This document shows positions 6,765 to 28,361 of a DNA stretch of 64,000 nucleotides, one piece after another. The notes below the pieces were generated by a model. It saw only the letters and a list, made by a program, of their open reading frames with translations. It searched no databases and was not told where the DNA came from. This DNA comes from Microcoleus sp. FACHB-68 (GTDB taxonomy: Bacteria > Cyanobacteriota > Cyanobacteriia > Cyanobacteriales > Oscillatoriaceae). Both the position numbers and the translations under genes were made by a program. Location: assembly GCF_014695715.1 (NCBI RefSeq), contig NZ_JACJOT010000008.1:248001-312000 (forward strand). Direction: 5' to 3'. The stretch's first letter is position 1; every line of letters starts with the position of its first letter.

Positions 6765-7505
6765 CTACTCAGGCGACCACTGCCAATGTGATAAATTAAA
6801 ATCTTTACCTTCTATCGCCAAAGCACCCACATAATCGGCAGATGGAATTAAATGTAAAATAGACCACCGGCTGGCTGATTCAACATCACCGGCAACGCTC
6901 AACAATCGAGCCGGCTCATCTGGAAGAAACGAAACTTCAATTTGCTCTAGCGGTTTATATAAGCCATCCCCAATGGCTTTTAAAAACGCTTCCTTTCGCG
7001 TCCAGCAGTTTAAAAAAGCCGCTTGTTTCTCACTTGCCGGCATTCCCTGAAGTACCGCATATTCTCGCTGAGAAAAAAAGCTTTTCGCGATTGCTTCAGC
7101 ATCAGGCATCGAACGTACCTGTTCCAGATCAATGCCAACTACCCGATCCAGTACGATTGCATAAAGAGCGAGTCCTTGTGAATGAGATAAATTAAAACAA
7201 ACCCGCTCATTCATCAAAGCCGGCTTGCCACGTTTTTCATAACAAAACTGTATTTGACTTGGTGCGATCTCTAAATACCGGCTCAAAATATTTCTGAGTA
7301 TCCCTCTGCCGGCAATAAAACGCTGCCGATCTCGCTCAAAGTAAAACCGCTTAGCGCGATCACCCTCGTCTGCTGAAAGCGTTTCCCGCAAATCATCAAT
7401 CTGTTGTGCCGGCAGATCGAGTTCAGCAAGCCAAATGTGGACTTCATTTAAAGATAGCCTTAAGTCTGCCGGTGGCTGACACCACAAAATACTGTTTTGA
7501 ACCAT
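6765..7505 (-). CDS. 4'-phosphopantetheinyl transferase (Sfp/HetI type)
   Basis: 246 residues, the usual length of the two-domain Sfp-type enzymes. It transfers phosphopantetheine from CoA to the conserved serine of carrier domains. The magnesium/CoA motif VGIDLE is at 123-128 (D126, E128), preceded by FNLSHSQGLAL; the second signature WTRKEAFLKA starts at W168 with E172. It is transcribed away from the NRPS gene, with starts 763 bases apart. The obvious inferred substrates are the five carrier serines of the neighbouring synthetases, though in cyanobacteria one such enzyme often serves all carrier proteins in the cell. Confidence 0.92.
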   Translation of the reverse strand: MVQNSILWCQPPADLRLSLNEVHIWLAELDLPAQQIDDLRETLSADEGDRAKRFYFERDRQRFIAGRGILRNILSRYLEIAPSQIQFCYEKRGKPALMNERVCFNLSHSQGLALYAIVLDRVVGIDLEQVRSMPDAEAIAKSFFSQREYAVLQGMPASEKQAAFLNCWTRKEAFLKAIGDGLYKPLEQIEVSFLPDEPARLLSVAGDVESASRWSILHLIPSADYVGALAIEGKDFNLSHWQWSPE

Positions 7506-11200: not shown

Positions 11201-14200
11201 GTCAACCCGTGCAAGTTGTCCATCCAACGCTCACCCTCACGCTGCCGGTGGTGGATCTGCGAGAATTGCCGCACTCAGAACGAGAAGCAGAAGCCCTACG
11301 CCTCGCCACAGAAGAGGCACGGCGTCCCTTCGACTTGACAGCCGGCCCGCTAATCCGGGCAACGTTGATCCAGCTAGATGAGTCGGATTGCCGGTTATTC
11401 CTGACCCTACACCACATTATCCATGACGGCGTTTCTAACTACAGCGTGCTTGCGCCAGAACTCGCCGCGTTATATGAAGCCTTCTGCGCCGGCAACCCCT
11501 CGCCTCTGCCAGAACTGCCGGTACAATATCCAGACTTCGCCCACTGGGAACGGCAATGGCTGCAAACGTCCGTTTTAGCGCCACAATTAGACTATTGGCG
11601 GCAACAACTGGCAAATTTGCCGGTGTTGCAACTGCCCACAGATCGCCCCCGCCCCGCAGTGCAAACTTTCCGGGGTGCCAGACAGTGTGTATCTCTCTCC
11701 AAATCCTTAACAGAGGCACTGAAAGCCCTCTCGCGCCGGCAAGGTGTCACTTTATATATGACCCTGTTGGCAGCTTTTAAAACCTTGCTGCACCGTTATG
11801 CCGGCCAAGATGAGATTGTAATTGGCACTGTCACCTCCAACCGTAGCCGGCCTGAAATTGAAGGGCTGATCGGGTATTTCCTCAACACCCTTGTATTGCG
11901 AACCGACTGCTCAGGCAACCCCAGTTTCCAACAGTTACTCGAACGCGTGCGGGAAGTCACGTTAGGCGCTTATGCCCACTCAGACGTACCTTTTGAGCAA
12001 TTGGTGCAAGCATTACAGCCAGAACGAAGCCTCAATCAAAACCCGCTTTTTCAAGTTTCCTTTGTTCTGGAACCACCCATGCCGGCCCTTGAGTCTGGGT
12101 GGACATTAAGCCAACTAGATGTAGAAACCGGCACCGCAAAACTCGATTTAACCCTAGAACTTGACGAAAGACCAGAGGGATTAATTGGTCGCTTTGAATA
12201 CAGCACAGATTTGTTTGATGATGCCACCATCACCCGCATGGCTGAGCATTTTCAAACTTTACTGGAAGGCATTGTCGCCAACCCAGATCAGCAGATTGAG
12301 AATTTACCAATCCTGACAGAATCAGAGCGGCAACAACTCCTCTTTGAGTGGAATTCTACTGATACAAATTACCCGCAAAATGTTTGCATTCACCAGCTAT
12401 TTGAAGCCCAGGTAGAACAAACACCCGACGCCGTTGCGGTTGTCATTGAAGGCGAACATTTAACATATCAGGAACTCAACGCCAAGGCGAACAAAATCGC
12501 TCATTATCTGCGTTTCTTAGGCATTGTTCCAGATACCTTGGTGAGTATCTGCGCTGAGCGATCTTTAGAAATGGTTGCCGGCATCTTGGGAATTCTCAAA
12601 GCCGGTGCTGCTTATGTGCCATTAGATCCGGCATATCCTCAAGATCGCCTTAGTTTCATGCTTGAGGATACCCAAGCGCCGGTGCTGCTAACTCAAAGCC
12701 GGCTCGTTGAAAAACTGCCCCAACACAACGCCCAAGTTATCTGCCTCGATGCAGACTGGGAAACGATTTCCCAACATAGCGACTGCAAGCCAAACTCTGA
12801 GGTAAGCGCCGAAAACCTCGCCTACACAATCTACACATCAGGTTCCACCGGCAAACCCAAGGGCGTACCCATCACCCACCAAAACTTGGTTCATTCCACG
12901 TTTGCACGCACTGCATATTACAAAGAACCTGTCAAGGGTTATTTGCTGCTGTCGCCCTTTGCCTTCGACAGTTCAGTTGCCGGCATCTTCTGGACACTCT
13001 GCCAAGGCGGAAGTCTGGTTTTACCCCAAGATGGCGCTCAAGCGGATGTGCCACAGCTAATCGAGTTAATTGAGCAAAATCAAGTTTCCCACTGGTTAAG
13101 CCTTCCGTCTCTTTACGGGTTGCTTTTATCAATTGCAAAACCCCAACAACTCGGTTCTCTACGCACCGTAATCGTTGCCGGCGAAGCGTGTCAAAAAGAC
13201 TTAATTGAACGTCACCGGAAACGGCTGCCTCACGCCTGTTTATTTAACGAATACGGGCCGACAGAGGGAACAGTTTGGAGTACCGTTTACGACTGTGGTG
13301 ATCTCGGAGAAAATACCCTCGTTCCGATTGGTAAACCGATTCCGAATATGCAAGTTTACCTGCTCGATTCTCACTTGCAACCCGTGCCGGTGGGAGTGGC
13401 TGGAGAGTTGCATATTGGCGGTGCCGGCTTAGCGCCCGGATACTTAAACCGGCCTGATTTAACGGCAGAGAAATTTATTGCCAATTTATTTAGTCAAGAT
13501 GCCAATAGCCGGCTATATAAAACTGGCGACTTAGCCCGTTATTTACCCGATGGAAACATCGAATATCTGGGGAGAATTGACCATCAAGTAAAAATTCGCG
13601 GCTTCCGTATCGAAATGGGTGAAATTGAAGCCTTGCTCAATTCTCATCCATCCGTGCAAGAAACCGCAGTGATCGCACGAGAAGACGTACCGGGCGATCA
13701 GCGCTTAGTCGCCTATATTGTCCCCAGCTTAACGGCTAGTTCAGAAATCATTAAAGAATTGCGTCGCTTCTTAAAAGAGAGACTGCCGGCTTATATGGTG
13801 CCTTCTGCCTTCGTGTTGCTGGAAGCTTTGCCACTTACACCCAATGGCAAATTAGATCGCAAAGCATTGCCGGCACCGAATCACCTGAAAGCTGAACGGG
13901 AAGAAATTTTTGTTGCGCCTCGCAATCCCGTTGAAAAAATCCTGGCTGACATCTTAGCCCAACTTTTAGGACTTCAAGAAATCGGGATTCATGATAATTT
14001 CTTTGAATTAGGCGGACATTCTCTGCTAGCGATTCAATTGATCTCCCGACTAAGTGCTGCATTCGGAATTAAAATTTCCTTACGCTGCTTATTTGAAAAC
14101 CCGACCCTTGAAGGGATCGCAATTGCAATTGTCAAAAATCCCCAGTACCGCAGCGAAGTTTTCGGCAATCGGCAAATCGTAGAAACTCAAATCCCCAAAT

Positions 14201-17200
14201 CTTTAACTACAGGACTCAAACTCCGCCCAGAAAACATTTATGCCCAAGGTGCAACAGATTTCCTTCCCCTATCTTTCGCCCAAGAACGATTGTGGTTCCT
14301 TGAAAAGTTAAGACCGGCAACAGCGTTTTACAATATCGCCACTACCATAAAAATGGTAGGCCGGCTCAACCCAAGCACCCTAGAACAAAGTCTTAACGAG
14401 ATCCTCCGCCGTCATGAAGCTTTGCGGAGTAGTTTTACAACCGTCGATGGACAGCCGGTGCAAGCCGTCGCCGCAACTGTTCACTTAAAACTTCCCATTT
14501 TCGACTTGCGGAGTCTAAGTGAAACTGAGCGAGAAGCAGAAACCGAGCGATTAACCGCACAGGAAGCCCAGCGTCCTTTTGACCTCGCGCAAGCACCTTT
14601 AGTCCGGGCAACGCTGCTGCAATTGGCTGAGACAGAACACATCCTGCTGCTGACAGTGCATCACATTGTCTCCGATGGTTGGTCGATGGGGTTACTGCAT
14701 CGGGAAATGTTAGCAATTTATCAGTCCTTGATGGCAGGAGAACCTTCCTCCTTGGCTGAGGTGCCGGTTCAGTATCCCGACTTTGCAGTTTGGCACCGGC
14801 AGTGGTTACAAACTCAGGAAGCCGGTAAAGCATCGCCCCTCGAAACCCAGCTATCTTACTGGAAACAACAACTTCAGGGCGCACCCTCCGCGCTGGAAAT
14901 GCCCACAGATCGACCGCGCCCGCCCGTTCAAACGTTCCGAGGCGCGACACACCCAGTCGTACTGCCTAAGCCTCTAATTGAAGCGCTGAATCGCTTAAGC
15001 CGGCAAACCGGCGCGTCCCTTTACATGACCCTTTTAGCAGCGTTCAACACGTTGCTACACCGTTATACAGCCCAGGAGGATATTGTCCTCGGCACCGTCA
15101 CGGCTAACCGTAATTGGTCTGAAATTGAGAACCTGATTGGGTTCTTTGTCAATACCCTGCTAGTTCGCACGGATCTTTCAGGAAATGTCTCTTTCCGGGA
15201 GTTGCTGGATCGAGTGCGTGAGGTGGCGTTTGGTGCTTACGCTCACCAAGATTTACCTTTTGAAAAGTTAGTGAGCGAACTTCACCCGAATCGGGATTTA
15301 AGCCAAAATCCCTTATTCCAAGTAATGTTTGTATTCCAGAAAGATGGGCTGGAAACGTTAGAAATTCCGGGCTTGAATCTGAATTTCTCAAATGTACATT
15401 GCGGCACGGCGAAGTTTGATTTAACGCTGCAACTTCAAGAGACACCTAGCGGCGTGAGTGGCTGGTTTGAGTACAGCACAGACTTATTTGATGCCGGCAC
15501 CATTGAGCGCATGGCCGGCCATTTCCAGACGTTACTGGAAGGCATCGTTGCGAACCCAGAACAGCGCCTCTCAGAGTTGCCAATTCTGACCCCAGAAGAA
15601 CGGCACAAAATCGTCTTTGAGTGGAATGATGTTTACACTGATTACCCCCACGATGCCTCGATCCAAGCGCTATTTGAAGCGCAGGTAGAACAGACACCCG
15701 ATGCCATTGCCCTCGTCTTTCATAATTCTCAGGACTCAGGACTCAGGACTCAGCACCCTCAACTAACCTACCGGCAATTAAACGCCAAAGCGAACCAGGT
15801 GGCACACTACTTGCGTTCGCTGGGTGTTGGCCCGGATGTGTTGGTGAGCTTGTGTATGGAACGTTCCCTTGAGATGATCATCGGAATCTTGGGGATTCTC
15901 AAAGCCGGCGGCGCTTATGTCCCCCTCGATCCTGCTTATCCCCAAGAGCGCTTGGGTTATATGCTAGAGGACTCTCAAGCGCCGGTGTTGCTTGCTCAAG
16001 AGCGACTGCTGAACGGTTTGCCGGCACACAAAGCACACACCGTTTGCATCGATACAGACTGGGAAGCCATCGCCCGTGAAAGTGAGGAAAATCCGCCGGT
16101 TGAAATTTCTTCACTTCACCTTGCCTATATAATGTACACCTCCGGCTCCACCGGCAAGCCAAAGGGTGTTTGCATTCCTCATCAAGGCGTAGTGCGGTTG
16201 GTCAGAAATACCGACTATGCCGACTTGAATTCCGAAGAAGTCCTCCTGCACCTAACCTCAAGTGCCTTCGATCCGGCAACCTTGGAGATTTGGGGCGCTT
16301 TGCTCAACGGTGGCCGGCTGGTGATCGCGCCCCCTTACACCCCCTCTTTGGAAGAGTTAGGACAGGTGATTAAGCAACACCAAGTTAGCACCCTGTTTCT
16401 CACAACCGGCCTGCTCCATGTGATGATTGATGAGCGGCTTGAGGATTTAAAAGGTGTACGCCAACTGTTAACCGGCGGGGATGTTTTCTCTGTCGCCCAC
16501 GCCCAAAAGGTTGTGCAAACCCTGAAAGGATGCCGGATGGTTAACGGCTATGGGCCAACCGAAAACTCAATCTATTCCTCTTGCTACACCGTCCCAGCCG
16601 TTGATCAGATTGGAAATTCGGTTTCCATCGGTCGTCCGATTGCGAATAGTCCGACTTATATTTTGGATCGCCATTTAAACCCCGTTCCCATCGGTGTCTG
16701 GGGTGAACTGTATGTTGGAGGTCCCGGCTTAGCGCGAGGCTATTGGAACCGGCCAGAATTGACGGCTGAAAAATTTATTCCCAACCCCTTCTTTAAAAAA
16801 GAGGGAGACTATGTAGACCGGCTCTACAAAACCGGCGACCTCGTCCGATACTTACCGGATGGAAATATCGAGTTCCTAGGACGTATCGACAACCAAGTTA
16901 AAATTCGCGGTTTCCGCATTGAATTGGGCGAAATTGAAACCGTCCTCAACCAGCATCCATCTGTACGCGAAACTATTGTGCTTGCTCACAAAGATGCAGC
17001 CGGCGACAAACGCTTAGTTGCCTATATCGCTCTTGAAGAAGGCGATGGGCCATCCCTCAATCTCACTTCTAACTCTTTACCCAACTCCCAACTGGGCACT
17101 CAAGACTCAGCACTCATTACAGACTTGCGTGGCTTCTTAAAAGAACGGCTGCCGGCATACATGATGCCCTCTGCCTTCGTGCTGCTGGAAGCGTTTCCCC

Positions 17201-18354
17201 TAACCCCCAACGGTAAAATAGACCGCAAAGCCCTGCCGGCACCTGAGTTTGATCGCTCCCAAGAGCAAGAAGCTTTTGCCGCACCCCGCGATACCTTAGA
17301 ACTCCAGCTAACGCAAATTTGGGAGACTGTGTTAGGCATTGATTCTATCAGTATTCAAGACAATTTCTTCGATCTCGGAGGGCACTCCTTACTGGCTGTG
17401 CGCCTGTTAGATCGCATCGAAAAGGTATTCGGCAAAACGCTTCCCTTGCCTACCTTGTTCAGCGCCCCAACTGTTGAACAATTGGCTAATATTATCCGCG
17501 CTTCCGGGGTTGATTCTTCCGAAGAAGCGCTAGTGCCGCTGCGTTTGGGTAAAGATAAACCGCCTCTATTCTGTATTTACGGAATTATGCTTTATCACGC
17601 CTTAGCACGCAATTTGGCGGACGATCAGCCGGTTTATGGCGTCTACCTGCAAGCCGAAGTAGATATCTTAAAAGCGGATAACCCAGAAAAACAGATAGCC
17701 TCAATCAGTGTTACTTCCCTGGCGAGTCAGTATCTCAAAGAAATCCAAAAACAGCAGCCGGTTGGCCCTTACTATCTCGCCGGTGAATCCTTCGGCGGCT
17801 TAGTTGCTTATGAGATCGCTCAGCAGTTGCGTGCAGAAGGGCAAGAAGTGGCTTTATTAGCTTTATTTGATTCTTTTGCGCCGGGAGCTCTGAAAAAAGC
17901 GCCAATGCCGGTGCGAGTGATGCTGCATTTGCAAAACTTTTTCCGGCAAGGCTCAACTTATGCTTTCCACAAAGCAAGGCGGAGGCTTCAACTTGCTAAA
18001 AAGCAACTGCTTAGACTCACTAACCGGATGTATGGGAAATTAGACTCTATCAATGAGAGTTCTTTATCGAACACCTTCACGGATGCTGTCATCCGCGATC
18101 TGCGTGAACTTATTCTTGAGAAGGCATCGAACAATTACGCCCCCCAGCCGTACCTGGACAAAATCACGTTATTCCGGGCGATGGATCGAAATGAATTTGA
18201 GGCAACTTACACTGATCCTCAATTAGGTTGGGGTGAGTTTGCTGCCGGCGAATTAGAAATTCACGATATTCCGGGCGATCACATCGGTATCCTTCAAGAA
18301 CCGAATGTTAAGGTTCTGGCAGAAAAATTGAGTGCTTACTTACAAAAGCCATAG
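8269..18354 (+). CDS. Three-module NRPS: C(partial)-A-PCP-C-A-PCP-C-A-PCP-TE
   Basis: 3361 residues. After a 40-residue unrelated leader, 41-300 match only the C-terminal half of a condensation domain (LDLPADRPRSALGTF onward); the HHxxxDG half is absent. A1 is 305-800 (YTSGSTGKPKG near 455), PCP1 has Ser856 in LGGHS. Module 2: C 913-1340 with HHIIHDG 1048-1054, A2 1375-1880, PCP2 Ser1918. Module 3: C 1998-2430 with HHIVSDG 2130-2136, A3 2465-2985, PCP3 Ser3040. The thioesterase (about 3100-3361) has GESFGG with Ser3174. No epimerase, methylase or reductase domain is present. Aligned by eye to GrsA, the specificity residues read DLTKIGEVG(K) for A1 (matches asparagine), DSALIAEVW(K) for A2 (not assigned) and DPLFLGGIY(K) for A3 (distantly like the valine code). 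A tripeptide starting with Asn, released by the thioesterase, is inferred. Two heptanucleotide-repeat insertions lie inside A3. A strong terminator follows at 18390. Confidence 0.95.
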   Translation: MTQSKVNPGVPTGTPPTHPEMLSQPSNTVGKQSQKQLESGKSPYSNIPLLDLPADRPRSALGTFVGASQHLALSQTLAHNLKALSQQQGNPLSITLLAAFKALLYRYTGTPEIVVASAAPKRKWTKNEGLIAFTNTLVLHTQIDGNASFLELAERVQTVTLNAYNKPELPFETLAGERQLQQPNQTPLFQVMFAFDNPKIADILDRTGLTLLPINFDSDAAGCDLTLCVKDTEREVIAELKYNAELFNPDTINRLIGHFQTLLEGIVANPEQPISQLPLLTPAERQQILIEWNNTQTDYPHDTCVHQLFEAQVELTPDAVAAVFQDKQLTYRQLNTKANQLAHYLRSLGVGPEVFVGICLERSLEMMVAILGTLKAGAAYVPLDPAYPTERLGFILEDAQTPVLLTQTHLVKNFHQHSAQVVCLDKDWETIAQHSEENPINLADTSNLAYIIYTSGSTGKPKGTMIPHRGLVNYLGWCIKAYAVAEGQGTLVHSSIGFDLTVTSLFSPLLVGKSAVLLPENQEIEALGDAIRTGGDYSLVKITPAHLEALSQCLTSEKPAGQTRAFIIGGEALLGKTLSYWRTQSPQTRLINEYGPTETVVGCCIYEVPEDAQLLGAMPIGTPIANTQLYILDKHLQPVPVGLQGELYIGGAGLARGYLNRPDLTAEKFIANPFFDTGKESVFTSNRLYKTGDLARYLPDGTIEYLGRIDNQVKLRGFRIELGEIEAALSQHPAVRETAVIVREDVAGDKRLVAYVVPSETANSALTKELRHFLEATLPHYMVPSAFVLLEVLPLTTNGKVDRKALPAPDASSALAETFVAPRTPIEAALTAIWADVLGLQQVGIQDNFFELGGHSLLGMQVISRLRNSYQVELPLRSLFEAPTVAELAQKVETAGEQELSVIAPAITRISRDRNLPLSFAQEQLWFFGQLAPDTPVYNEPATIRLTGTINIPALENSLNEIIRRHEALRTTFAEVNGQPVQVVHPTLTLTLPVVDLRELPHSEREAEALRLATEEARRPFDLTAGPLIRATLIQLDESDCRLFLTLHHIIHDGVSNYSVLAPELAALYEAFCAGNPSPLPELPVQYPDFAHWERQWLQTSVLAPQLDYWRQQLANLPVLQLPTDRPRPAVQTFRGARQCVSLSKSLTEALKALSRRQGVTLYMTLLAAFKTLLHRYAGQDEIVIGTVTSNRSRPEIEGLIGYFLNTLVLRTDCSGNPSFQQLLERVREVTLGAYAHSDVPFEQLVQALQPERSLNQNPLFQVSFVLEPPMPALESGWTLSQLDVETGTAKLDLTLELDERPEGLIGRFEYSTDLFDDATITRMAEHFQTLLEGIVANPDQQIENLPILTESERQQLLFEWNSTDTNYPQNVCIHQLFEAQVEQTPDAVAVVIEGEHLTYQELNAKANKIAHYLRFLGIVPDTLVSICAERSLEMVAGILGILKAGAAYVPLDPAYPQDRLSFMLEDTQAPVLLTQSRLVEKLPQHNAQVICLDADWETISQHSDCKPNSEVSAENLAYTIYTSGSTGKPKGVPITHQNLVHSTFARTAYYKEPVKGYLLLSPFAFDSSVAGIFWTLCQGGSLVLPQDGAQADVPQLIELIEQNQVSHWLSLPSLYGLLLSIAKPQQLGSLRTVIVAGEACQKDLIERHRKRLPHACLFNEYGPTEGTVWSTVYDCGDLGENTLVPIGKPIPNMQVYLLDSHLQPVPVGVAGELHIGGAGLAPGYLNRPDLTAEKFIANLFSQDANSRLYKTGDLARYLPDGNIEYLGRIDHQVKIRGFRIEMGEIEALLNSHPSVQETAVIAREDVPGDQRLVAYIVPSLTASSEIIKELRRFLKERLPAYMVPSAFVLLEALPLTPNGKLDRKALPAPNHLKAEREEIFVAPRNPVEKILADILAQLLGLQEIGIHDNFFELGGHSLLAIQLISRLSAAFGIKISLRCLFENPTLEGIAIAIVKNPQYRSEVFGNRQIVETQIPKSLTTGLKLRPENIYAQGATDFLPLSFAQERLWFLEKLRPATAFYNIATTIKMVGRLNPSTLEQSLNEILRRHEALRSSFTTVDGQPVQAVAATVHLKLPIFDLRSLSETEREAETERLTAQEAQRPFDLAQAPLVRATLLQLAETEHILLLTVHHIVSDGWSMGLLHREMLAIYQSLMAGEPSSLAEVPVQYPDFAVWHRQWLQTQEAGKASPLETQLSYWKQQLQGAPSALEMPTDRPRPPVQTFRGATHPVVLPKPLIEALNRLSRQTGASLYMTLLAAFNTLLHRYTAQEDIVLGTVTANRNWSEIENLIGFFVNTLLVRTDLSGNVSFRELLDRVREVAFGAYAHQDLPFEKLVSELHPNRDLSQNPLFQVMFVFQKDGLETLEIPGLNLNFSNVHCGTAKFDLTLQLQETPSGVSGWFEYSTDLFDAGTIERMAGHFQTLLEGIVANPEQRLSELPILTPEERHKIVFEWNDVYTDYPHDASIQALFEAQVEQTPDAIALVFHNSQDSGLRTQHPQLTYRQLNAKANQVAHYLRSLGVGPDVLVSLCMERSLEMIIGILGILKAGGAYVPLDPAYPQERLGYMLEDSQAPVLLAQERLLNGLPAHKAHTVCIDTDWEAIARESEENPPVEISSLHLAYIMYTSGSTGKPKGVCIPHQGVVRLVRNTDYADLNSEEVLLHLTSSAFDPATLEIWGALLNGGRLVIAPPYTPSLEELGQVIKQHQVSTLFLTTGLLHVMIDERLEDLKGVRQLLTGGDVFSVAHAQKVVQTLKGCRMVNGYGPTENSIYSSCYTVPAVDQIGNSVSIGRPIANSPTYILDRHLNPVPIGVWGELYVGGPGLARGYWNRPELTAEKFIPNPFFKKEGDYVDRLYKTGDLVRYLPDGNIEFLGRIDNQVKIRGFRIELGEIETVLNQHPSVRETIVLAHKDAAGDKRLVAYIALEEGDGPSLNLTSNSLPNSQLGTQDSALITDLRGFLKERLPAYMMPSAFVLLEAFPLTPNGKIDRKALPAPEFDRSQEQEAFAAPRDTLELQLTQIWETVLGIDSISIQDNFFDLGGHSLLAVRLLDRIEKVFGKTLPLPTLFSAPTVEQLANIIRASGVDSSEEALVPLRLGKDKPPLFCIYGIMLYHALARNLADDQPVYGVYLQAEVDILKADNPEKQIASISVTSLASQYLKEIQKQQPVGPYYLAGESFGGLVAYEIAQQLRAEGQEVALLALFDSFAPGALKKAPMPVRVMLHLQNFFRQGSTYAFHKARRRLQLAKKQLLRLTNRMYGKLDSINESSLSNTFTDAVIRDLRELILEKASNNYAPQPYLDKITLFRAMDRNEFEATYTDPQLGWGEFAAGELEIHDIPGDHIGILQEPNVKVLAEKLSAYLQKP
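15728..15755. repeat. Four CTCAGGA-type heptads inside adenylation domain 3
   Basis: CTCAGGA x3 then CTCAGCA, encoding part of NSQDSGLRTQHPQL. The sister A1 and A2 domains read QDKQLTYRQLN and EGEHLTYQELN at this point, so about ten residues have been added in a surface loop before the A1 core motif without breaking the frame. Confidence 0.75.
17097..17117. repeat. Three CACTCAA/GACTCAG heptads in the A3 linker before motif A10
   Basis: Encodes GTQDSAL within a linker (about 2945-2965) that is much longer than in modules 1 and 2. The same repeat type occupies the equivalent linker of the second NRPS at 26758-26785. Confidence 0.65.
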
Positions 18355-19382: not shown

Positions 19383-22300
19383 ATGCAATTAAAAGAGAAG
19401 GAAACGCCATCCCAACTGTCAGCAATCGCAATTGCAATTGCAGCGACATTCACGGCTGAGCCGGTGGGGGAATCTCTCGCTTTTTGGATGCAAGAACTAG
19501 ATATCCCCTCTAAGATTGACTTCGCACCGTATAATCAGGTTTTTCAGCAACTGCTTGCACCTGACAGCCTGCTGGCTCAAAATAACAATGGCATTAATGT
19601 TATTTTGGTGCGAATAGAAGATTGGGAAAAGCAGGAAGAACGCGCACACACCGGCATGGCGTTGCAGCCGGCAGCCAAGCAACACATTGAACGAAATGTG
19701 GCGGATCTGGTGCGAATTTTGAAATCGGTGGGAGAACGTAGCGCAACCCCTCAACTCGTGTGCTTGTGCCCCGCCTCACCGGCAGCCGTTGCAGACTCCA
19801 GCCGGCAGGCATTCTTCCAGCAGATGGAAGACGTGATCGCCTCGGAATTAGACAGCGTTAGAAATACCTTCACTGTTACCCCTCAAGAATTCGCGTCTCT
19901 CTATCCCGTTTCCAACTACTACGACGCGCACACAGATGAGTTGGGGCACGTTCCCTACACACCGGCTTTCTTTGCCGCCCTCGGTTCCACCATCGCCCGA
20001 AAAATCGCCCGCCTGAGTCGCGCCCCCTACAAGGTAATTTTGCTCGACTGCGACCAAACTTTATGGAAAGGCGTTTGCGGCGAAGATGGGGCGATGGGAA
20101 TCGAAATTGATGCGCCTCGCAAAGCTCTGCAAGAATTCATGGTAGTCCAGCAACAAGCCGGCACGATCGTTGGGTTATGCAGCAAAAACATAGAAGCCGA
20201 TGTTTTTGAAGTCTTTGATCGCCGGCCTGAAATGCCCCTCAAACGCGAACATATCGTTTCCTGGCGGATTAACTGGCAACCCAAATCAGAAAATATCAAA
20301 TCCATCGCCGAAGAACTTAATTTGGGTTTAGACAGTTTCATCTTTATCGATGATAACCCCGTTGAATGCGCGGAAGTGCAAGCCAATTGCCCGGAAGTTC
20401 TCACCCTGCTGCTACCTTCGGAAGTCGAAGAGATTCCCAGATTTCTGAATCACATTTGGGCATTTGATCGGCTGAAAGTTACGGAAGAAGACAAGAAGCG
20501 CACCGCCCTTTACAAACAAAATGCAGAACGCGAACGATTCCGTAGTTCAGCCTTAACCCTCGATAATTTTTTAGAGGGATTGGGGTTAGAAATTGATATC
20601 TCTGAAATGGCAGCGCACCATTTTGCTAGAGTCGCCCAGCTTACGCAGAGAACCAATCAATTTAACTTTACAACCATTCGCCGGTCTGAAAGCGATATTC
20701 AACAGCTATGCGAATCGGGACAATTAGAAGGTTTGGTTGTTGAAGTGCGGGATCGGTTTGGCGATTATGGTTTAGTTGGGGTAATGCTTTTTGGCAGCAA
20801 CCCTGAAGCCATTAATGTCGATACATTCCTACTCAGTTGCCGCGCTTTGGGACGGGGTGTAGAGCATCGAATGCTGGCAAAACTCGGAAAAATTGCTGAG
20901 GATCGCGGGCTTTATCGGGTTGATATCGGTTATATTCCAACCAAAAAGAATCAGCCGGCTTTTAATTTTATTGAAAGTATCAGTTCAGTTAAAGAAGCGG
21001 TTGGTGATGCCGTGCGTTATCAGGTGCCGGTGGAGGTTGCCGCAGCAGTCAGTTATCAACCCTCAGCAGCATCGGATCTAGCCGAAAGTTCTCCAACTAA
21101 AAATGAAACCTCCCCGCAAAACGCGTCGGTACGGTTGCAGGAAAAAGCCGGTCATTCTTCCTCTGCCTTTCACCAAACAGTGATTCGGATTGCCAGGGAA
21201 TTATATGATGCCGAGCAAATTCTGCAAGTGATTGAATCGCAAAAATTGCGATCTAGGCCGGCAATTGAATCGAGTTACATTGCCCCCCGAACGCCTGTTG
21301 AGGAAGTGCTAGAAGGCATTTGGGCGCGTGTTCTCGGCGTAGATAAAGTGGGAGTGGAAGACAACTTTTTCGAGTTGGGCGGTCACTCGCTATTGCTTAC
21401 CCAATTGATTTCCCGCATTCGCGATAACTTCCAAATTGAGCTATCCATGCAGCGTTTCTTTGAAGCGCCAACGATTTCTGGACTCGCTTTATTGCTGGCC
21501 AAAAATCAAGAAGGGCCAATGAATGCCGAAGCGATTGCTGAACTTCTGAAAATGGTTAACCGGCTTTCAGAAGCAGAAGCGAAGGCAATGCTGGAGGCGA
21601 AAATGGGAACGTCTATCGTTGATTCTTCACTTTCTCCCAGCACTCAGGATTCAGAACTCAAAGCTCAAGATTCAGCACTGTATACTCAACCCTACCGGAT
21701 CGGAGATATCGAACGAGTTGCAATTCGCGCCGGCCAAGAATTAGTTTACTCAAGAAACAGCCGCAGAAGTCAACTTTTAAATGCTGATGTTGTGCAAATG
21801 CTGTGTGAATGCCGGCAATTCAAAACCATTGAGGAACACGCACAAAATATCTGCCGTAATGTGGGTGGAGATATAGCAGCGATTAAAACTGAGTTAGCCG
21901 CATTTGTCGAAGCCGGCTTCTTAATTTCCCAGCAGCAGCTACTAGAAAAATTCGGGCCAAATCAACAGATTACAGTCAAATCTGCTGAGGAATTAAACGC
22001 TCATTATCCTGTTGAAAATGACAGTGTAAGAAGTCATTCATTTACGGCTGTCAAAACCCATAGCAATGGGAAACAGTCGGCGGACAAGGATACGACAGAC
22101 GGCACAGTTGCCTCGGTGGGAATGGTGACGTGCAACCGCATTGAAGGTGCAAAACGCGCCCTGACAAGCTACATCGAAAATAGCCAACAACACGGCAGAA
22201 CGAATAATTTTGTCCTCATGGATGATTCTGCCAGTTCTCAAACGCGAGATGGCTATCGGCAAATGCTGCGCTCGCTTAAAACGCAGTATGGGGCGGAGAT

Positions 22301-23627
22301 TTTTTATGCCGGCTTAGAGGAAAAACAGCGGTTTGCTCAATCATTAATTCAAAAGGGAGGATTGCCACAAGACGTTGTCAATTTTGCCTTATTTGATGTC
22401 GAAAAATCCGGCGCATCTCCGGGTGCAAACCGCAATGCTTTGACGTTGCATACTGCCGGCGACATCATTTTTAGCGCAGATGATGATACGGTGTGCAAGT
22501 TAGTGCCTTCTCCAGAATTGCAGGAAGGCTTAACTTTAACTGCCGGCACTGATCCTTCCGATTATTGGGTGTTTGATGACCGCGAAACTGCCTTAAAATC
22601 GGTGAAGTTTGTAGATCAAGACCTTTTAGCCCTGCATGAGCAGTTATTGGGTAAAAATGTTGGTGCGATTCTTGAGTCTGCCGGCAATACCGACACCGTT
22701 AATATCAACCCAATCGAAAATCAATTTATGCGCCGGTTAGAAGCCGGTGCCGGCAAAGTTTTAGTTACATTTAACGGATTGGTTGGAGACTGTGGATGGG
22801 GTGCGCCTTTTGGTTATTGGGGTGCGCCTTTGGGTTATCTTTTACTAGCCGGTAAATCCCACGAACGATTAGTGCAATCAGAGTCAGGATACCGCAATGC
22901 GCTGACAAGTCGGGATATTTTAAGAGTCACCAACCGGCTAGGAATTAGCGATGACAGTTTCGGCATGACCACATTTGTGGGATTAGATAATCGGGGAGTG
23001 CTGCCGCCATTTATCCCCGTCCGACGCGGGCAAGATTTAATCTTTTCTAATACGGTTTGGAAGTGTTTTCAAAACAGCTTTTTTGGGCACTTACCTTGGG
23101 CATTATTACACGAGCCGGTGGAACAACGGAAATTCTGGGCCGGGGAAATTTTCAGAACCGCTTCTGGTTTTGATACCGCTAAATTAATTGTAGAATGCAT
23201 TAAATCTTGCGAATTCGGGCCGGCATCGCTTGATGAAAAAGAAAGGCTGCGTTCCCTTGGAAAACACCTAATAGAATTAGGTTCACTGCCTCTTGCCGGT
23301 TTTGAAGAGTTTCTACGGTTGCAAGTTTGGCGTACCAGCAGTTCCTTTATTTCCCTAGCAGAAGAACATCTGCGAATTTCTGGAGAGTCGCCGGCTTACT
23401 GGGCAAATGATGTTAAAAAATACACCGATTTGTTGTGTCAATCTCTAACACGAGATGATTATTTCATTCCCCTAGATTTAGTTCAGGGACGCAATTTAGA
23501 TGAAGCGCGACAGCTAGCCCAGCGTTTGGTACTTAAATTTGGTCAGTTGTTATACTGGTGGCCAGAAATGATTGAAGTTACCAAACAATTGCGTCATCAC
23601 GGGGAAAGATTGGGAAGACTAATTTAG
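19383..23627 (+). CDS. FkbH-type glyceryl loader - PCP - PqqD/RRE-like - glycosyltransferase-like fusion
   Basis: 1414 residues in four parts. (1) About 1-560: FkbH-like protein with HAD motif DCDQTLWKG (222-230; D222, D224), IDDNPVEC and the acetyltransferase-like tail LSCRALGRGVEHRMLAK. Family members load and dephosphorylate 1,3-bisphosphoglycerate to give glyceryl-S-carrier. (2) About 630-710: carrier domain, LGGHS with Ser669. (3) About 771-860: winged-helix segment resembling PqqD/RiPP recognition elements (SRRSQLLNADVVQMLCECR, then FKTIEEHAQNI and ELAAFVEAGFL). (4) About 905-1414: GT-A-like domain beginning SVGMVTCNRIEGAKRALTSY with an acidic SADDDT (D1033-D1035), as in nucleotide-sugar-dependent transferases. 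Parts 1 and 2 are confident, 3 and 4 are by pattern. A heptad-repeat linker (21641-21689) joins parts 2 and 3, and a WGAPxGY tandem lies at 22797-22838. The gene sits between two NRPS genes on the same strand and ends 151 bases before the second. A glyceryl unit made here and then modified is the natural inference. Confidence 0.85.
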   Translation: MQLKEKETPSQLSAIAIAIAATFTAEPVGESLAFWMQELDIPSKIDFAPYNQVFQQLLAPDSLLAQNNNGINVILVRIEDWEKQEERAHTGMALQPAAKQHIERNVADLVRILKSVGERSATPQLVCLCPASPAAVADSSRQAFFQQMEDVIASELDSVRNTFTVTPQEFASLYPVSNYYDAHTDELGHVPYTPAFFAALGSTIARKIARLSRAPYKVILLDCDQTLWKGVCGEDGAMGIEIDAPRKALQEFMVVQQQAGTIVGLCSKNIEADVFEVFDRRPEMPLKREHIVSWRINWQPKSENIKSIAEELNLGLDSFIFIDDNPVECAEVQANCPEVLTLLLPSEVEEIPRFLNHIWAFDRLKVTEEDKKRTALYKQNAERERFRSSALTLDNFLEGLGLEIDISEMAAHHFARVAQLTQRTNQFNFTTIRRSESDIQQLCESGQLEGLVVEVRDRFGDYGLVGVMLFGSNPEAINVDTFLLSCRALGRGVEHRMLAKLGKIAEDRGLYRVDIGYIPTKKNQPAFNFIESISSVKEAVGDAVRYQVPVEVAAAVSYQPSAASDLAESSPTKNETSPQNASVRLQEKAGHSSSAFHQTVIRIARELYDAEQILQVIESQKLRSRPAIESSYIAPRTPVEEVLEGIWARVLGVDKVGVEDNFFELGGHSLLLTQLISRIRDNFQIELSMQRFFEAPTISGLALLLAKNQEGPMNAEAIAELLKMVNRLSEAEAKAMLEAKMGTSIVDSSLSPSTQDSELKAQDSALYTQPYRIGDIERVAIRAGQELVYSRNSRRSQLLNADVVQMLCECRQFKTIEEHAQNICRNVGGDIAAIKTELAAFVEAGFLISQQQLLEKFGPNQQITVKSAEELNAHYPVENDSVRSHSFTAVKTHSNGKQSADKDTTDGTVASVGMVTCNRIEGAKRALTSYIENSQQHGRTNNFVLMDDSASSQTRDGYRQMLRSLKTQYGAEIFYAGLEEKQRFAQSLIQKGGLPQDVVNFALFDVEKSGASPGANRNALTLHTAGDIIFSADDDTVCKLVPSPELQEGLTLTAGTDPSDYWVFDDRETALKSVKFVDQDLLALHEQLLGKNVGAILESAGNTDTVNINPIENQFMRRLEAGAGKVLVTFNGLVGDCGWGAPFGYWGAPLGYLLLAGKSHERLVQSESGYRNALTSRDILRVTNRLGISDDSFGMTTFVGLDNRGVLPPFIPVRRGQDLIFSNTVWKCFQNSFFGHLPWALLHEPVEQRKFWAGEIFRTASGFDTAKLIVECIKSCEFGPASLDEKERLRSLGKHLIELGSLPLAGFEEFLRLQVWRTSSSFISLAEEHLRISGESPAYWANDVKKYTDLLCQSLTRDDYFIPLDLVQGRNLDEARQLAQRLVLKFGQLLYWWPEMIEVTKQLRHHGERLGRLI
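21641..21689. repeat. Seven degenerate heptads in the linker between carrier and RRE-like domains
   Basis: Seven consecutive seven-base units (CACTCAG, GATTCAG, AACTCAA, AGCTCAA, GATTCAG, CACTGTA, TACTCAA), 49 bp in all, encode a Ser/Gln-rich linker (STQDSELKAQDSALYTQ). They fall exactly between two recognisable domains, so the repeat has served as linker. Confidence 0.7.
22797..22838 (+). repeat. 21-bp tandem duplication coding WGAPFGY-WGAPLGY
   Basis: Two adjacent 21-base units differing at three positions encode a seven-residue repeat inside the glycosyltransferase-like domain, starting at residue 1139. Confidence 0.7.
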
Positions 23628-23778: not shown

Positions 23779-26700
23779 ATGGGTGAGTCTATCCAAGATA
23801 TTGCAACGCTTTCTCCCACTAAGCGGGCACTATTTGAGTTGCTGCTCAAAGAAAAGGGTTTAAATGTCTCTAGAATCCCCAAAATCCTTCGGGGCAGTGA
23901 GACTCAATTTTATCCGCTTTCTTTCGCCCAGCAACGGCTATGGTTTCTCGACCGATTAGACCCAGGCAATCCGGTTTATAATGAAACAACCACAGTCCGC
24001 CTCACCGGCAGACTTAACATTGTTGCGCTTGAACTAAGTTTGAATGAAATTGTCCGCCGGCATGAAATTTTGCGGACAACTTACGCGCTTGTCGGTGCAG
24101 AACCCGTTCAATACATTTCTCCCGCACAACCGATTTCCCTGTCAGTAACCGATTTGAGAAACTTGCCTTTAGAGGAACGCGAACGCTCTTTCTGGCAGTT
24201 ATCCACTCAAAAAGCGCAGCAGCCTTTTGACTTAGAAACCGGGCCGTTACTTCGGGCTAATTTATTTCAACTCGATGAAGAATCTTATGTATTAGGACTA
24301 ATCATACATCACATCATTACAGATGGTTGGTCTAGTAGGATACTAATTCGAGAAATGACGGCACTTTATGACTATTATAGTGCCAGCAAACCTTCACTTT
24401 TACCCGAACTTTCGATTCAATATATCGACTTCGCCGGCTGGCAGCGCGAATGGATGCAGGGTGAAGTTTTAAACCAGCAACTTTCGTATTGGAAAAAACA
24501 CTTAGGCGGACGGCTGCCGGTGCTAGATTTGCCAACAGATCGCCCCCGCCCGCCGGTTCAAACATTTCGCGGCGCACGTCAGTCTTTAACCCTTTCCCCT
24601 GAATTAAGCACCGCATTGGCTGCATTTAGCCGCGCTGAAGGTGTCACTTTATACATGACGCTGCTAGCCGCATTCCAGACATTGCTAATGCGGCTAAGCG
24701 GACAAGACGATATTATTGTGGGATCTCCGATTGCCGGTCGCAATCGCGCAGAAATTGAAGGACTCATTGGATTTTTTATCAATACCTTAGTTCTGCGTAC
24801 CAATCTTGCAGGCAATCCAACATTTAAAGAAGTTTTGCAGCGAGTGCGCCAAGTTGCTTTAGACGCTTATGCTCATCAAGACTTGCCTTTTGAAAAATTA
24901 GTTGAAGAACTACAGCCCGAAAGAGATTTGAGCCGCACACCGCTATTTCAAGTATTTTTTAATATGCTCAGTTTTGAGCAAAATAGCATCGAAATATCAG
25001 GATTAACCGTAGAAACGTTACCGCGTCCCGAACTCGAATCAAAGTTCGATATAACACTTTATGCACGAGAAAATCCTGAACGAACTCAGCTAGAATTTGT
25101 TTATAATGCCGATTTGTTTGAGCCGGCACGCATGGTTGAAATGCTGGCACAATTCCAGCATATTCTGGCTCAAATTGTCAATAACCCAGAAGAAAAAATA
25201 GCTGAAATTTCTTTGGTAACGTCTTCAGTTCAAGCACGCTTACCAAATCCACATGAAACGCTCAATGATTCTTGGGAAGGCGCTGTTCACAGGCAGTTTT
25301 CCCAACAAGCAAAGCGAGTGGGAAATAGCACAGCCATCGTTGATCGGCAAGGAAATCTGACTTATTCACAACTCGATAAAATCAGCAATCAACTCGCCGA
25401 TTATCTGCAAAAACATGGCATTGGTTCTCAGGATGTTGTCGCGATTTACGCATATCGTAGCGCCCCAATAGTCGTGGCTTTGCTGGGAATTCTCAAAGCC
25501 GGCGCTGCATTTGTGATTCTCGATGCCAAATATCCCGCCGAGCGATTAATTGATTGTGTTAAGCTAGCTCAGCCGAAGGCTTGGCTGCAAATGTCAGTCG
25601 CAGGAAACCTTCCGGAGACTTTAGAAACCTTTATTGGGACATTATCAAGCCAGTGCCGGTTGAATCTACCTGAATCAGCCGTCGAAATTGGCGAGATTTT
25701 AAAGGATTATTCAACAGAAAATCCCCATACCGAAATTAACCCCGATGACTTAGCCTATATTGCCTTTACCTCCGGCTCAACCGGCAAGCCCAAAGGTATC
25801 TTAGGCACTCACAAACCGCTTTCCCACTTCCTGCAATGGCACGTCCAAACCTTTAATTTAAATCAATCAGATCGATTCAGTGGGCTATCTGGACTCGCCC
25901 ACGATCCCTTGCTGCGAGACATTTTTACACCCCTATGGTTAGGCGCAACCCTCTGCATTCCTACCCCAGAAGAAATCGGCACTCCAGGCAAGTTAGGCGA
26001 GTGGATGAAGCAACAGCAAATCACCATCAGCCACCTAACACCGGCAATGGGACAGCTCTTAACTGAAACTTCCCAAAATCAACAACTAACAAACCTGCGT
26101 TATGCCTTCTTTGGAGGCGATGTATTAACAACTCGTGATGTTGAAAAACTGCGAAATATAGCTCCAAATGTTACTTGCGTGAACTTCTATGGAGCCACAG
26201 AAACTCCGCAAGCAATGGGGTATTATATCGTTCCGAATCAAGAATTAGAAGAACATACAAACACAGCAACCCATCGACCCGAAAATTCCCTAATACCCCA
26301 ATCTCGCACTCAATCCCGAATTCCCTTGGGACGAGGCATCCAAGATGTGCAACTGCTAATTTTAAATTCCTCCCATCGGCTGGCAGGAATTGGAGAAATC
26401 GGAGAAATATACATCCGCACATCTTATTTATCTCAAGGATATTTGGGAGATGAATCGTTAACTACATCGCGATTTTTCACCAATCCATTTACCAATATCC
26501 CCTCAGACCGGCTCTACAAAACCGGAGACTTAGGCCGGTATTTACCTGATGGGAATATATCAGTTGCCGGTCGCGCTGATCATCAAATAAAAATCCGAGG
26601 ATTCCGCATTGAGCCGGGGGAAATTGAGACAGTATTAAGCCAGCATCCCCATGTGCGGCAAAGTGTGGTGATCGCCCGTGAAGATATACCGGGAGAGAAA

Positions 26701-28014
26701 CGTTTAGTTGCCTATCTTGTCCCCATTCTTGACTTCGGAACGCCAAACAAAACAGCCGACTCAGCACTCAGCACTCAGCACTCAGCACTTAAGAGTGAAT
26801 TACGCGATTTTGTCAAAGAAAAACTGCCAGATTACATGGTTCCTTCAGCATTTGTGATGCTAGAAAGTGTGCCATTAACACCCAATGGTAAAATCGACCG
26901 CAAAGCATTACCGGCACCTGAATACCGCAGTGAATCTGAAAATTCTTTCGTTGCACCCCGCGATGATTTAGAACATCAATTAACAGAAATATGGGAAACC
27001 CTGATCCATGTCAAACCGATCAGCGTTAAGGATAACTTCTTTGAACTAGGGGGACACTCGCTGCTAGCGCTGCGTCTGTTCAATCAAATTCAAGAAAAAT
27101 TCAACAAACTGTTGCCTCTAGCTACCCTTTTCCAAGCACCAACGGTTGAACAACTCGCAAATATTTTACGCTCTTCAGAGCCGTCAGCGCCCATCCGCTC
27201 ACTCGTTCCCATTCAGCCAAACGGTTCTAAAACGCCCTTATTCTGCATTCATGCCATTGGCGGCAACGTTCTTTCTTACCAAGGTGTAGCCACTTATCTG
27301 AGCAAAGATCAGCCGGTTTACGGGTTGCAAGCGCGGGGTATCGCCGGCAAACAGACTCCCCACACACGGGTCGAGGACATGGCATCTGACTATATCAAGG
27401 AGATCCGCACGGTTCAGCCTGAAGGGCCATATCTGTTAGCCGGCCACTCGTTAGGAGGAATTATCGCCTTTGAAATGGCTCAGCAGTTAGTGCGGGGTGG
27501 TCATAAAGTCGGTTTAGTCGCAGTTTTCGATACCTTCAGTCCCCTGGCATTTGGCAAAGGTACTCCTCCAAAATCTTATCAGTTTGATATTCACCGGCTG
27601 AATCTTTCACGACTCAATCGGAAAGATAAGGTACTTTACATTACAGATCGCGTGTACTGGAAAATTGAGGGTTTCATCGAGAAAATTTGGAAAAAGGTTT
27701 ACAAATTAACAGGTCGAACTTTGCCAGATCCGCTACCCGAACATTTCAAAAAAATCGAAAGTGCAAACCGTGTTGCTGCCACCAACTATGTCCCCCAAGT
27801 TTATCCAGGGCAAGTAACCCTTTTACGGGCAATAGAAAGGCCAACTACCAAGTATTATGATCCCCTATTAGGCTGGGGCGAATTAGCAGCAGATGGTGTA
27901 GAAGTTCAAGAGATTCCAGGGCATCACAAAACGATCATTTTAGAACCTCGTGTTCGCTACTTAGCTGAAACATTGCAAGCGTGCTTAGAGAGGGCGCAAA
28001 CAGAGGAAAGATAA
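23779..28014 (+). CDS. Single-module NRPS: C-A-PCP-TE with Lys2-like adenylation domain
   Basis: 1411 residues. Condensation domain about 45-480 with intact HHIITDG (177-183). Adenylation domain about 500-1010, with FTSGSTGKPKG at 663-673. Its core SGLAHDPLLRDIFTPLWLG plus HLTPAMGQLL resembles the Lys2/aminoadipate-reductase type of adenylation domain rather than the usual FDxSxxE type. Aligned by eye to GrsA the code is DPRHFGFQA(K), with D709 as the amino-binding aspartate; DPRHF also starts the fungal Lys2 code. Carrier Ser1094 in LGGHS. Thioesterase about 1110-1411 with GHSLGG (Ser1224) and a late GHH. The ATG has AAGGA upstream. As C-A-PCP-TE it could add one residue to a donor carried by the upstream proteins and release the chain. 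A heptad repeat has expanded its pre-A10 linker. The amino acid is not assigned. Confidence 0.93.
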   Translation: MGESIQDIATLSPTKRALFELLLKEKGLNVSRIPKILRGSETQFYPLSFAQQRLWFLDRLDPGNPVYNETTTVRLTGRLNIVALELSLNEIVRRHEILRTTYALVGAEPVQYISPAQPISLSVTDLRNLPLEERERSFWQLSTQKAQQPFDLETGPLLRANLFQLDEESYVLGLIIHHIITDGWSSRILIREMTALYDYYSASKPSLLPELSIQYIDFAGWQREWMQGEVLNQQLSYWKKHLGGRLPVLDLPTDRPRPPVQTFRGARQSLTLSPELSTALAAFSRAEGVTLYMTLLAAFQTLLMRLSGQDDIIVGSPIAGRNRAEIEGLIGFFINTLVLRTNLAGNPTFKEVLQRVRQVALDAYAHQDLPFEKLVEELQPERDLSRTPLFQVFFNMLSFEQNSIEISGLTVETLPRPELESKFDITLYARENPERTQLEFVYNADLFEPARMVEMLAQFQHILAQIVNNPEEKIAEISLVTSSVQARLPNPHETLNDSWEGAVHRQFSQQAKRVGNSTAIVDRQGNLTYSQLDKISNQLADYLQKHGIGSQDVVAIYAYRSAPIVVALLGILKAGAAFVILDAKYPAERLIDCVKLAQPKAWLQMSVAGNLPETLETFIGTLSSQCRLNLPESAVEIGEILKDYSTENPHTEINPDDLAYIAFTSGSTGKPKGILGTHKPLSHFLQWHVQTFNLNQSDRFSGLSGLAHDPLLRDIFTPLWLGATLCIPTPEEIGTPGKLGEWMKQQQITISHLTPAMGQLLTETSQNQQLTNLRYAFFGGDVLTTRDVEKLRNIAPNVTCVNFYGATETPQAMGYYIVPNQELEEHTNTATHRPENSLIPQSRTQSRIPLGRGIQDVQLLILNSSHRLAGIGEIGEIYIRTSYLSQGYLGDESLTTSRFFTNPFTNIPSDRLYKTGDLGRYLPDGNISVAGRADHQIKIRGFRIEPGEIETVLSQHPHVRQSVVIAREDIPGEKRLVAYLVPILDFGTPNKTADSALSTQHSALKSELRDFVKEKLPDYMVPSAFVMLESVPLTPNGKIDRKALPAPEYRSESENSFVAPRDDLEHQLTEIWETLIHVKPISVKDNFFELGGHSLLALRLFNQIQEKFNKLLPLATLFQAPTVEQLANILRSSEPSAPIRSLVPIQPNGSKTPLFCIHAIGGNVLSYQGVATYLSKDQPVYGLQARGIAGKQTPHTRVEDMASDYIKEIRTVQPEGPYLLAGHSLGGIIAFEMAQQLVRGGHKVGLVAVFDTFSPLAFGKGTPPKSYQFDIHRLNLSRLNRKDKVLYITDRVYWKIEGFIEKIWKKVYKLTGRTLPDPLPEHFKKIESANRVAATNYVPQVYPGQVTLLRAIERPTTKYYDPLLGWGELAADGVEVQEIPGHHKTIILEPRVRYLAETLQACLERAQTEER
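26758..26785. repeat. Four (G/C)ACTCAG heptads in the NRPS2 pre-A10 linker
   Basis: GACTCAG then CACTCAG x3, followed by CACTTA. Encodes DSALSTQHSAL. It occupies the same linker (between the A8/A9 region and the ELRxFxKEKLPxYM motif) as the 17097-17117 insertion in NRPS1. Confidence 0.8.
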
Positions 28015-28067
28015 GGCGTTAAATCTTTAACTTTTGCCTCTGATATTTGAAGTTCAACCCTGTTTGT

Positions 28068-28361
28068 ATGACAGCTTCTAAAAATGTCTTAGTCTGCCAA
28101 AACCGCACCTGTCGCAAGCAGGGTGCGGCGGCGGTACTTGCCAGTTTTGAATCCCACGCCCCAGATGATGTCGCCGTCACCGGCAGCAGTTGTTTGGGAC
28201 AATGTGGTAATGGGCCGATGGTGCTCGTCACTCCGGAGGAGGTTTGGTACTGCCATGTGCGCCCAGAAGAAGTGCCGGTGGTGGTTGAGCGACATTTGCA
28301 GGGGGGGAAGCCGGTGAAGGCAATGCTTTATCCCAAATTTCATCCTCAGTCGTTGAAGTAA
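28068..28361 (+). CDS. Thioredoxin-like [2Fe-2S] ferredoxin
   Basis: 97 residues from ATG 28068 (MTASKNVLVCQNRTCRKQG); the frame is open seven codons further upstream. Cysteines in VCQNRTC and SSCLGQCGNGP form the C-x4-C ... C-x3-C arrangement of thioredoxin-like ferredoxins (Shethna/NuoE-like), which bind one 2Fe-2S cluster and carry electrons. The C-terminal VTPEEVWYCHVRPEEVPVVV is usual for the cyanobacterial members. It lies just downstream of NRPS2 (53 bases) in the same direction; read-through from the NRPS locus is possible, but a role in it is not implied because these ferredoxins are general housekeeping proteins. Confidence 0.85.
   Translation: MTASKNVLVCQNRTCRKQGAAAVLASFESHAPDDVAVTGSSCLGQCGNGPMVLVTPEEVWYCHVRPEEVPVVVERHLQGGKPVKAMLYPKFHPQSLK

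Follow-up and report, generated by a model that had tools for sequence, protein, structure and literature searches.

An FkbH-carrier module joined in cis to a GT-A-like glycosyltransferase domain is conserved in one family of cyanobacteria

The window (the whole 64,000-nt stretch of Microcoleus sp. FACHB-68 DNA that was analyzed) contains a single open reading frame at positions 19383-23627 of the + strand, which encodes a protein of 1414 amino acid residues. Translation of this frame gave zero internal stops, and a frame check found numerous stops on the opposite strand, so the single 1414-residue chain read in the first-pass annotation was borne out. An assembly artefact was ruled out as the source of the fusion because the frame was open in eight genomes. 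The gene is located, as had also been claimed, in an NRPS locus: Pfam assigned a three-module NRPS gene upstream and a gene with the C-A-T-TE order downstream. The features of the locus are as follows:

6765-7505, - strand: HetI-like phosphopantetheinyl transferase (PF01648 above cut-off; NF042922 275.4 bits, under its cut-off of 370)
8269-18354, + strand: upstream NRPS, three C-A-T modules and a TE (Pfam), outside the conserved core
19383-20987, + strand: FkbH (HAD-IIIC glyceryl transferase/phosphatase) with the N-terminal region, residues 1-535 (TIGR01686)
21264-21497, + strand: carrier (PCP), residues 628-705 (PF00550), with Ser669 at 21387-21389
21498-21617, + strand: tail after the carrier, residues 706-745, resembling the C-terminal end of the NRPS subunit L002
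21684-21956, + strand: family-specific middle domain, residues 768-858, PqqD/RRE-like according to the first-pass annotation, conserved in 8/8 family genomes
22095-23624, + strand: GT-A-like C-terminal region, residues 905-1414 (hhalign to GT2), with a nucleotide-sugar core at ∼908-1060, GANRN and SADDDT
23779-28014, + strand: partner gene C-A-T-TE (Pfam), with C at residues 43-486, A at 507-1038, T at 1067-1128 and TE from 1153

The FkbH domain, as claimed earlier, was confirmed by TIGR01686, which spans residues 217-535 with 302.7 bits (curated cut-off 146.65). The DxDxT motif reads DCDQT and starts at residue 222; DCDxT was kept in 9/9 aligned rows, which represent eight genomes, the DNA of G389 being identical to a record named Microcoleus vaginatus WJT46-NPBG5. 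The carrier and its Ser669 were also found as first described: PF00550 covers residues 642-703 with 65 bits (cut-off 20.8), and Ser669, the phosphopantetheine serine in GGHS, was invariant across the nine rows. FkbH family proteins use D-1,3-bisphosphoglycerate to place a glyceryl unit on the phosphopantetheine of a carrier, and by analogy the FkbH domain is predicted to load Ser669 with glyceryl. Beyond the carrier, residues ∼715-745 were similar to the C-terminus of L002, a carrier-ending NRPS subunit from this genome. The end of L002 lies 76 residues past the carrier serine and has a similar tail, LSEEEVQQIL; the carrier-ending subunits L003 and L006, also of this genome, are without a tail of this type. 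Residues 706-745 may thus mark an old gene end and the fusion joint, at which an FkbH-carrier gene would later have been joined to the middle-GT part.

From profile comparisons, the C-terminal part clearly starts with a GT-A-like glycosyltransferase domain. When the first 160 columns were compared by hhalign with a GT2 reference profile made of 27 GT2 sequences from the window's own genome, a match of 93% with a score of 48.0 was obtained, and no control was as high (best of 200 column shuffles, 27.3; best of 52 decoy windows, 20.3). The whole-length region matched GT2 at 83.5%; by subset, the fused rows alone reached 57% and the stand-alone rows alone 4%. The core start, DDS, GANRN and SADDD were aligned to GT2, SADDDT being located at residues 1031-1036. 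The earlier assignment of a GT-A-like domain with SADDDT therefore held for the first ∼150 residues, by profile-profile comparison with controls. At E ≤ 1, PF00535 (Pfam GT2) matched 8/15 family members, with a lowest E of 7.7e-4; the window sequence itself scored 14.6 bits, under the cut-off of 23.3. DDD and GxNRN were invariant in all 15 members (eight fused and seven stand-alone). Thus, the N-terminal core, GxNRN and the DxD-type motifs align with PF00535/GT2, whereas the score stays below the cut-off and there is an extra C-terminal part of ∼350 residues, relatives of which were found only in stand-alone proteins of ∼490 aa. For these last ∼350 residues, no convincing family match was found with Pfam or the PDB profile search, in which the GT-part profile gave one match (E 1.2). 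The fused and the stand-alone sequences (eight and seven, respectively) can be aligned over 407 columns with 26% identity, and the ∼500 C-terminal residues therefore look like one family. The structure model of the GT part had a pLDDT of 35.0, its input being limited to the window and the relative L017; given the poor structure models, the GT fold is carried by profiles over ∼150 of the 510 residues.

The stand-alone ∼490-residue GT-A-like family (L010-L016, L018:7986-9446 and L128-L130) belongs mostly to the window's order and is also present on conjugative Trichormus plasmids; in a plasmid search, weakly similar stand-alone GT proteins were found in two Trichormus records. The surroundings of the stand-alone relatives, viewed on one plasmid and in three genomes, lie outside biosynthetic clusters, and on the Trichormus plasmid the GT gene adjoins an iron uptake porin gene. 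Because of this location, the stand-alone relatives give no hint of a glyceryl acceptor.

A search for the same fusion in other cyanobacteria, which the first-pass annotation had suggested, found it in full, as one frame, in 8/8 genomes of the window's family (the window's own included), with identities of 56-93% over the matched stretches and 61-93% over the whole proteins. With the GT-region profile, 22 of the 388 sampled genomes of the order gave a match: eight fused, all from the window's family; 11 in which the region forms a frame of its own, 487-514 residues long; and three with fragments only, so that among these 388 genomes the fusion was limited to the eight of the window's family. 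The fragments were those of G654, G658 and G663, and a further fragment was seen at a second place in G643. A single-sequence search of 386 genomes of the phylum matched eight, namely the own genome and seven with stand-alone frames. With the middle-domain profile, 378 genomes of the order yielded the same eight fusions and five weak matches; the latter, all in non-family genomes, were judged on reading to be due to chance. The middle domain had no match in a plasmid search, and relatives of the fusion were absent from the viral contigs searched. In a tree of 23 FkbH domains, which took in six of the eight fusions, these six grouped together with support of 93/92, slightly short of the value of 95 set by the program; a wider clade with 100/100 support joined them to NRPS loading modules and to the proteins from Aquisphaera and Streptomyces described below. 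The topology is compatible with a single origin of the fusion. By the Nei-Gojobori method over six pairs, dN/dS was low for FkbH, the carrier and the GT-A core (0.01-0.31 where computable), and 0.15-0.40 for the middle domain, a range that overlaps that of the linkers (0.19-1.2); in the pair G390/G392, the linker preceding the GT had a lower value than the middle domain. The fusion in cis of a glyceryl-loading module and a GT-A-like domain, with a family-specific domain between them, is real and conserved.

The partner gene was located directly downstream of the fusion in 7/8 genomes; the G387 copy is without the A domain, and that of G392 is truncated where the contig ends. In G387 (L025:13203-15719), where the adjoining fusion is intact, the partner has lost the A domain and its HHxxxDG reads HPLVADF; the T and TE motifs remain. 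G386 has an intact fusion alone, and its C-A-T-TE gene was found on another contig, directly downstream of a broken remnant of the GT C-terminus (L026:18353-18565), so the fusion-partner pair is probably ancestral. The A-domain signature of the partner was DPRHFGFQAK in the six of six members with a complete A domain. We take this signature to resemble the Lys2 (aminoadipate) code; against the aminoadipate family TIGR03443 the partner reached 685.9 bits, under the cut-off of 1030.1. The HetI-like phosphopantetheinyl transferase, a relative of which is also found beside the pair in G391 and G392, may activate the carriers. Among the ten window neighbors scanned (two of them without a Pfam match), no glycosyltransferase or nucleotide-sugar gene was found. 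Downstream of the pair, the window has a 2Fe-2S thioredoxin-like ferredoxin gene (28047-28358), which is also near the pair in G391, and a GcvT/YgfZ-like gene (29632-30690), which is also near it in G391 and G387; as these neighbors recur, the locus may occupy the same chromosomal place. In G390, the fusion adjoins an NRPS module (L022:5927-10693) whose A domain and carrier are separated by a PilZ domain.

When 367 genomes of the phylum were searched for FkbH at 1e-20, 43 matched, and seven matches besides the window's were 54-60% identical. Six relatives (five of these seven, and one at 39%) were without the middle or GT part by BLAST. Five relatives were scanned by Pfam, all of them NRPS proteins: a sulfotransferase follows FkbH-PCP in two (G095 and G042), and G360, G143 and G255 are without one after the carrier. 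A methyltransferase is inserted within FkbH in G042. In G360 (L163), FkbH-PCP is followed by a C-A module, the A domain of which carries an inserted nitroreductase-type oxidase. The dysinosin and suomilide papers, in their accessible parts, propose that the loaded glyceryl is modified by methyl- and sulfotransferase domains adjoining FkbH-PCP. Together with the sulfotransferases of G095 and G042, this suggests that the position behind FkbH-PCP can serve as a tailoring slot. A tailoring-type transferase is present C-terminal to FkbH-PCP here as well, in the form of the GT-A-like domain, and its action on glyceryl is predicted. As far as these papers are accessible, the dysinosin (DysB) and suomilide (SuoB/BslA) loading modules are similar in uniting FkbH, carrier and tailoring transferases in one protein, but they have an O-methyltransferase and a sulfotransferase where the window protein has the family-specific domain and GT-A; sugars are added there by separate genes, whereas the window protein holds its GT-A-like domain in cis.

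In the literature searched, mostly outside the subscription journals, no paper was found for FkbH with PqqD or for FkbH with Microcoleus, and in the partly accessible papers on FkbH with glycosyltransferase, glycosyl or sulfotransferase the present domain order is undescribed. The accessible text combining FkbH, glycosyltransferase, cyanobacterial and condensation domain concerns aeruginosin-type compounds. The earlier statement that no system with the order FkbH, carrier, extra domain and GT-A had been described thus stood within this literature.

With the sequence, domains, conservation and partner pairing established, we propose, with moderate confidence, that the locus encodes a glyceryl-loading module with a built-in glycosyltransferase, which would glycosylate the carrier-bound glyceryl in cis; extension by an amino acid and release would then be the work of the partner. 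The FkbH domain would place glyceryl, from D-1,3-bisphosphoglycerate, on the phosphopantetheine of Ser669; with a nucleotide sugar as donor, the GT-A domain would then glycosylate a hydroxyl of the bound glyceryl. We tentatively assign to the middle domain (768-858) a probable role in positioning or docking the carrier or the GT. The C-A-T-TE partner would join the glycosylated glyceryl to the amino acid that the Lys2-like A domain selects; release of the product would fall to the TE. Loading, on-carrier glycosylation and release are here predicted from domain content. By analogy, such on-carrier glycosylation would resemble the glyceryl tailoring of dysinosin and suomilide, as given in the accessible parts of those papers. 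We favor glycosylation of the carrier-bound glyceryl because FkbH and PCP are certain, the GT-A core passes its controls and its motifs are invariant; because the in-cis fusion is kept in all eight genomes, with low dN/dS for FkbH, PCP and GT and the partner following in seven; because a sulfotransferase takes the tailoring position in G095 and G042, in line with the methylation and sulfation of glyceryl proposed for dysinosin and suomilide; and because FkbH-carrier genes adjoin GT and TE genes elsewhere, in Aquisphaera and Streptomyces. It is weakened by the three of five scanned FkbH relatives without a sulfotransferase after the carrier and by the low GT2 match of the stand-alone relatives alone (against that of the fused rows alone). 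G387 fits poorly with an obligatory amino-acid step, since its partner is without an A domain and without an intact condensation motif.

The Aquisphaera and Streptomyces loci support a link of FkbH units to sugars, and by analogy they also support a rival reading, in which a glycan receives the glyceryl: the GT would build or extend a sugar (free, lipid-linked or in a polysaccharide), the TE or C domain would move glyceryl or glyceryl-amino acid there, and the carrier-bound unit would not be the GT acceptor. In an exopolysaccharide-type locus on an Aquisphaera plasmid, the gene for an FkbH-PCP-TE protein (L169:11935-14946) is flanked by a glycosyltransferase gene on either side; on a Streptomyces plasmid, FkbH-PCP lies near a TE, two GT genes and nucleotide-sugar genes. 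The Aquisphaera protein (WP_148599114.1) is close in that an FkbH domain 52% identical to the window's, a carrier, a TE and glycosyltransferase genes occur together; it differs in that its GT genes are separate and unlike the window GT by BLAST, and in that C-A domains are absent. Its TE reads GMCAGG, with cysteine replacing serine, whereas the TE of the window partner reads GHSLGG; the Streptomyces TE (L170) reads GWCVGG. The TE kept in G387, despite the loss of A and of the C catalytic motif, also fits transfer to a glycan. However, none of the five GT proteins of the two loci resembles the window GT domain by BLAST, the scanned window neighbors held no glycosyltransferase or nucleotide-sugar gene, and a covalent PCP-GT fusion is more easily explained by action on the carrier. 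We therefore consider transfer of glyceryl to a glycan rather unlikely, and retain glycosylation on the carrier as the preferred reading.

The segment at 765-865 had been read as PqqD/RRE-like, and this part of the first-pass annotation was not confirmed. PF05402 matched 0/8 fusion members at E ≤ 1, an NCBIfam search of the middle domain returned zero PqqD models, and a PDB sequence search with its profile gave no match. Against 30 PqqD-like sequences, the whole segment reached 3.6% by hhalign. For residues 767-860 the figure was 1.8%, and 12/300 column shuffles and 14/93 decoy windows scored as high; the middle-domain alignment is shallow and the comparison set represents the PqqD class of RRE. 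As a positive control, 12 PqqD groups were held out, six of which consisted of one sequence each; the procedure that gave 1-9% for the middle domain recognized all 12, at 93-99%. This control is lenient, since PF05402 had served to select its groups. Across the genome to which the window belongs, PF05402 had two weak matches, neither at the fusion gene. By eye, the domain does resemble PqqD, with a PqqD-like order that ends in ...EAGFLIS, and the aligned part of the 3.6% match is in the same register. HTH_48 (E 0.0074, in 2/8 members) and Lant_dehydr_N (E 0.05, in 1/8) were weak Pfam matches; with ASXH (E 0.005 or worse, 1-3/8 members in all three cases), they were treated as noise. The first two would agree with the RRE view and are the sole hints of a winged helix in 771-860. 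Apart from these, profile searches yielded no winged-helix match for 771-860, an outcome that the first-pass annotation had itself named as refuting its reading. The predicted model of the domain had helices only, with a pLDDT of 45.7 and an input limited to the window and L017. The spacing from ...FLIS to the ASVG of the GT core varies: 20-21 residues separate them in G386/G387, 40-41 in G390-G392 and 60 in the window.

No precursor peptide was found by small-ORF comparison across subgroups in the stretches adjoining the fusion-partner pair. Subgroups had in common the ferredoxin-like gene and a gene of ∼112 residues (G391, G387); the other shared small ORFs overlapped one of these two or the GcvT/YgfZ-like gene. 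Nothing beside the pair thus pointed to a ribosomal precursor, and directly beside the fusion, no small ORF was common to subgroups. In the accessible part of the RRE-Finder paper (PMC7470986), RRE-glycosyltransferase fusions are mentioned as novel; the middle domain is like these in size, in its position before the GT and in its pattern by eye, but it differs in having no statistical profile support, no precursor peptide found and a carrier-bound context. The rival reading built on this likeness, in which a true RRE and its GT recognize and glycosylate a ribosomal or nonribosomal peptide, is rated low in view of the shuffles, decoys and positive controls, and we find it improbable. An RRE identity is not supported by the profiles, and a remote winged helix is possible. 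Thus, the order FkbH, carrier, extra domain and GT-A was upheld and the RRE identity of the extra domain was not; likewise, in HMM-HMM comparison, the GT-A-like core within 900-1414 matched GT2 and the middle segment had no PqqD match. It is possible that the middle domain helps to bring the carrier-bound glyceryl to the transferase, though not through a demonstrated RRE identity. More speculatively, and in our view very improbably, an RRE-derived winged helix was captured by a thiotemplate enzyme and holds the Ppant-glyceryl or the carrier for a new on-carrier GT-A family; this would be a crossover of ribosomal and nonribosomal logic, leading to glycosylglyceryl amino acids as a core metabolite of the family.

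A GT-A-like domain that is catalytically inactive or has another role, for example in binding, would fit the missing family match of the last ∼350 residues, but the invariance of DDD and GxNRN and the low dN/dS of the core make this improbable. That the GT glycosylates the completed peptide of the three-module NRPS upstream, the fusion serving merely for gene co-regulation, is highly unlikely, since that NRPS, directly upstream in the window, G388 and G389, is not conserved: G390 has a different one and four of the eight genomes have none adjacent (among them G392, the contig of which ends soon after).

If glycosylation of the carrier-bound glyceryl is correct, the locus would provide a glycosyltransferase acting on a carrier-bound starter unit inside a loading module, whereas the published cyanobacterial examples, in their accessible parts, use separate glycosylation genes. 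Glycosylation would then join methylation and sulfation, already proposed for FkbH-PCP loading modules, and a first role would be given to the ∼490-residue GT-A-like family, which is annotated as hypothetical where annotation was seen. Glycosylglyceryl conjugates would be predicted in all eight sampled species of one cyanobacterial family, including G387, which has few carrier-domain matches.
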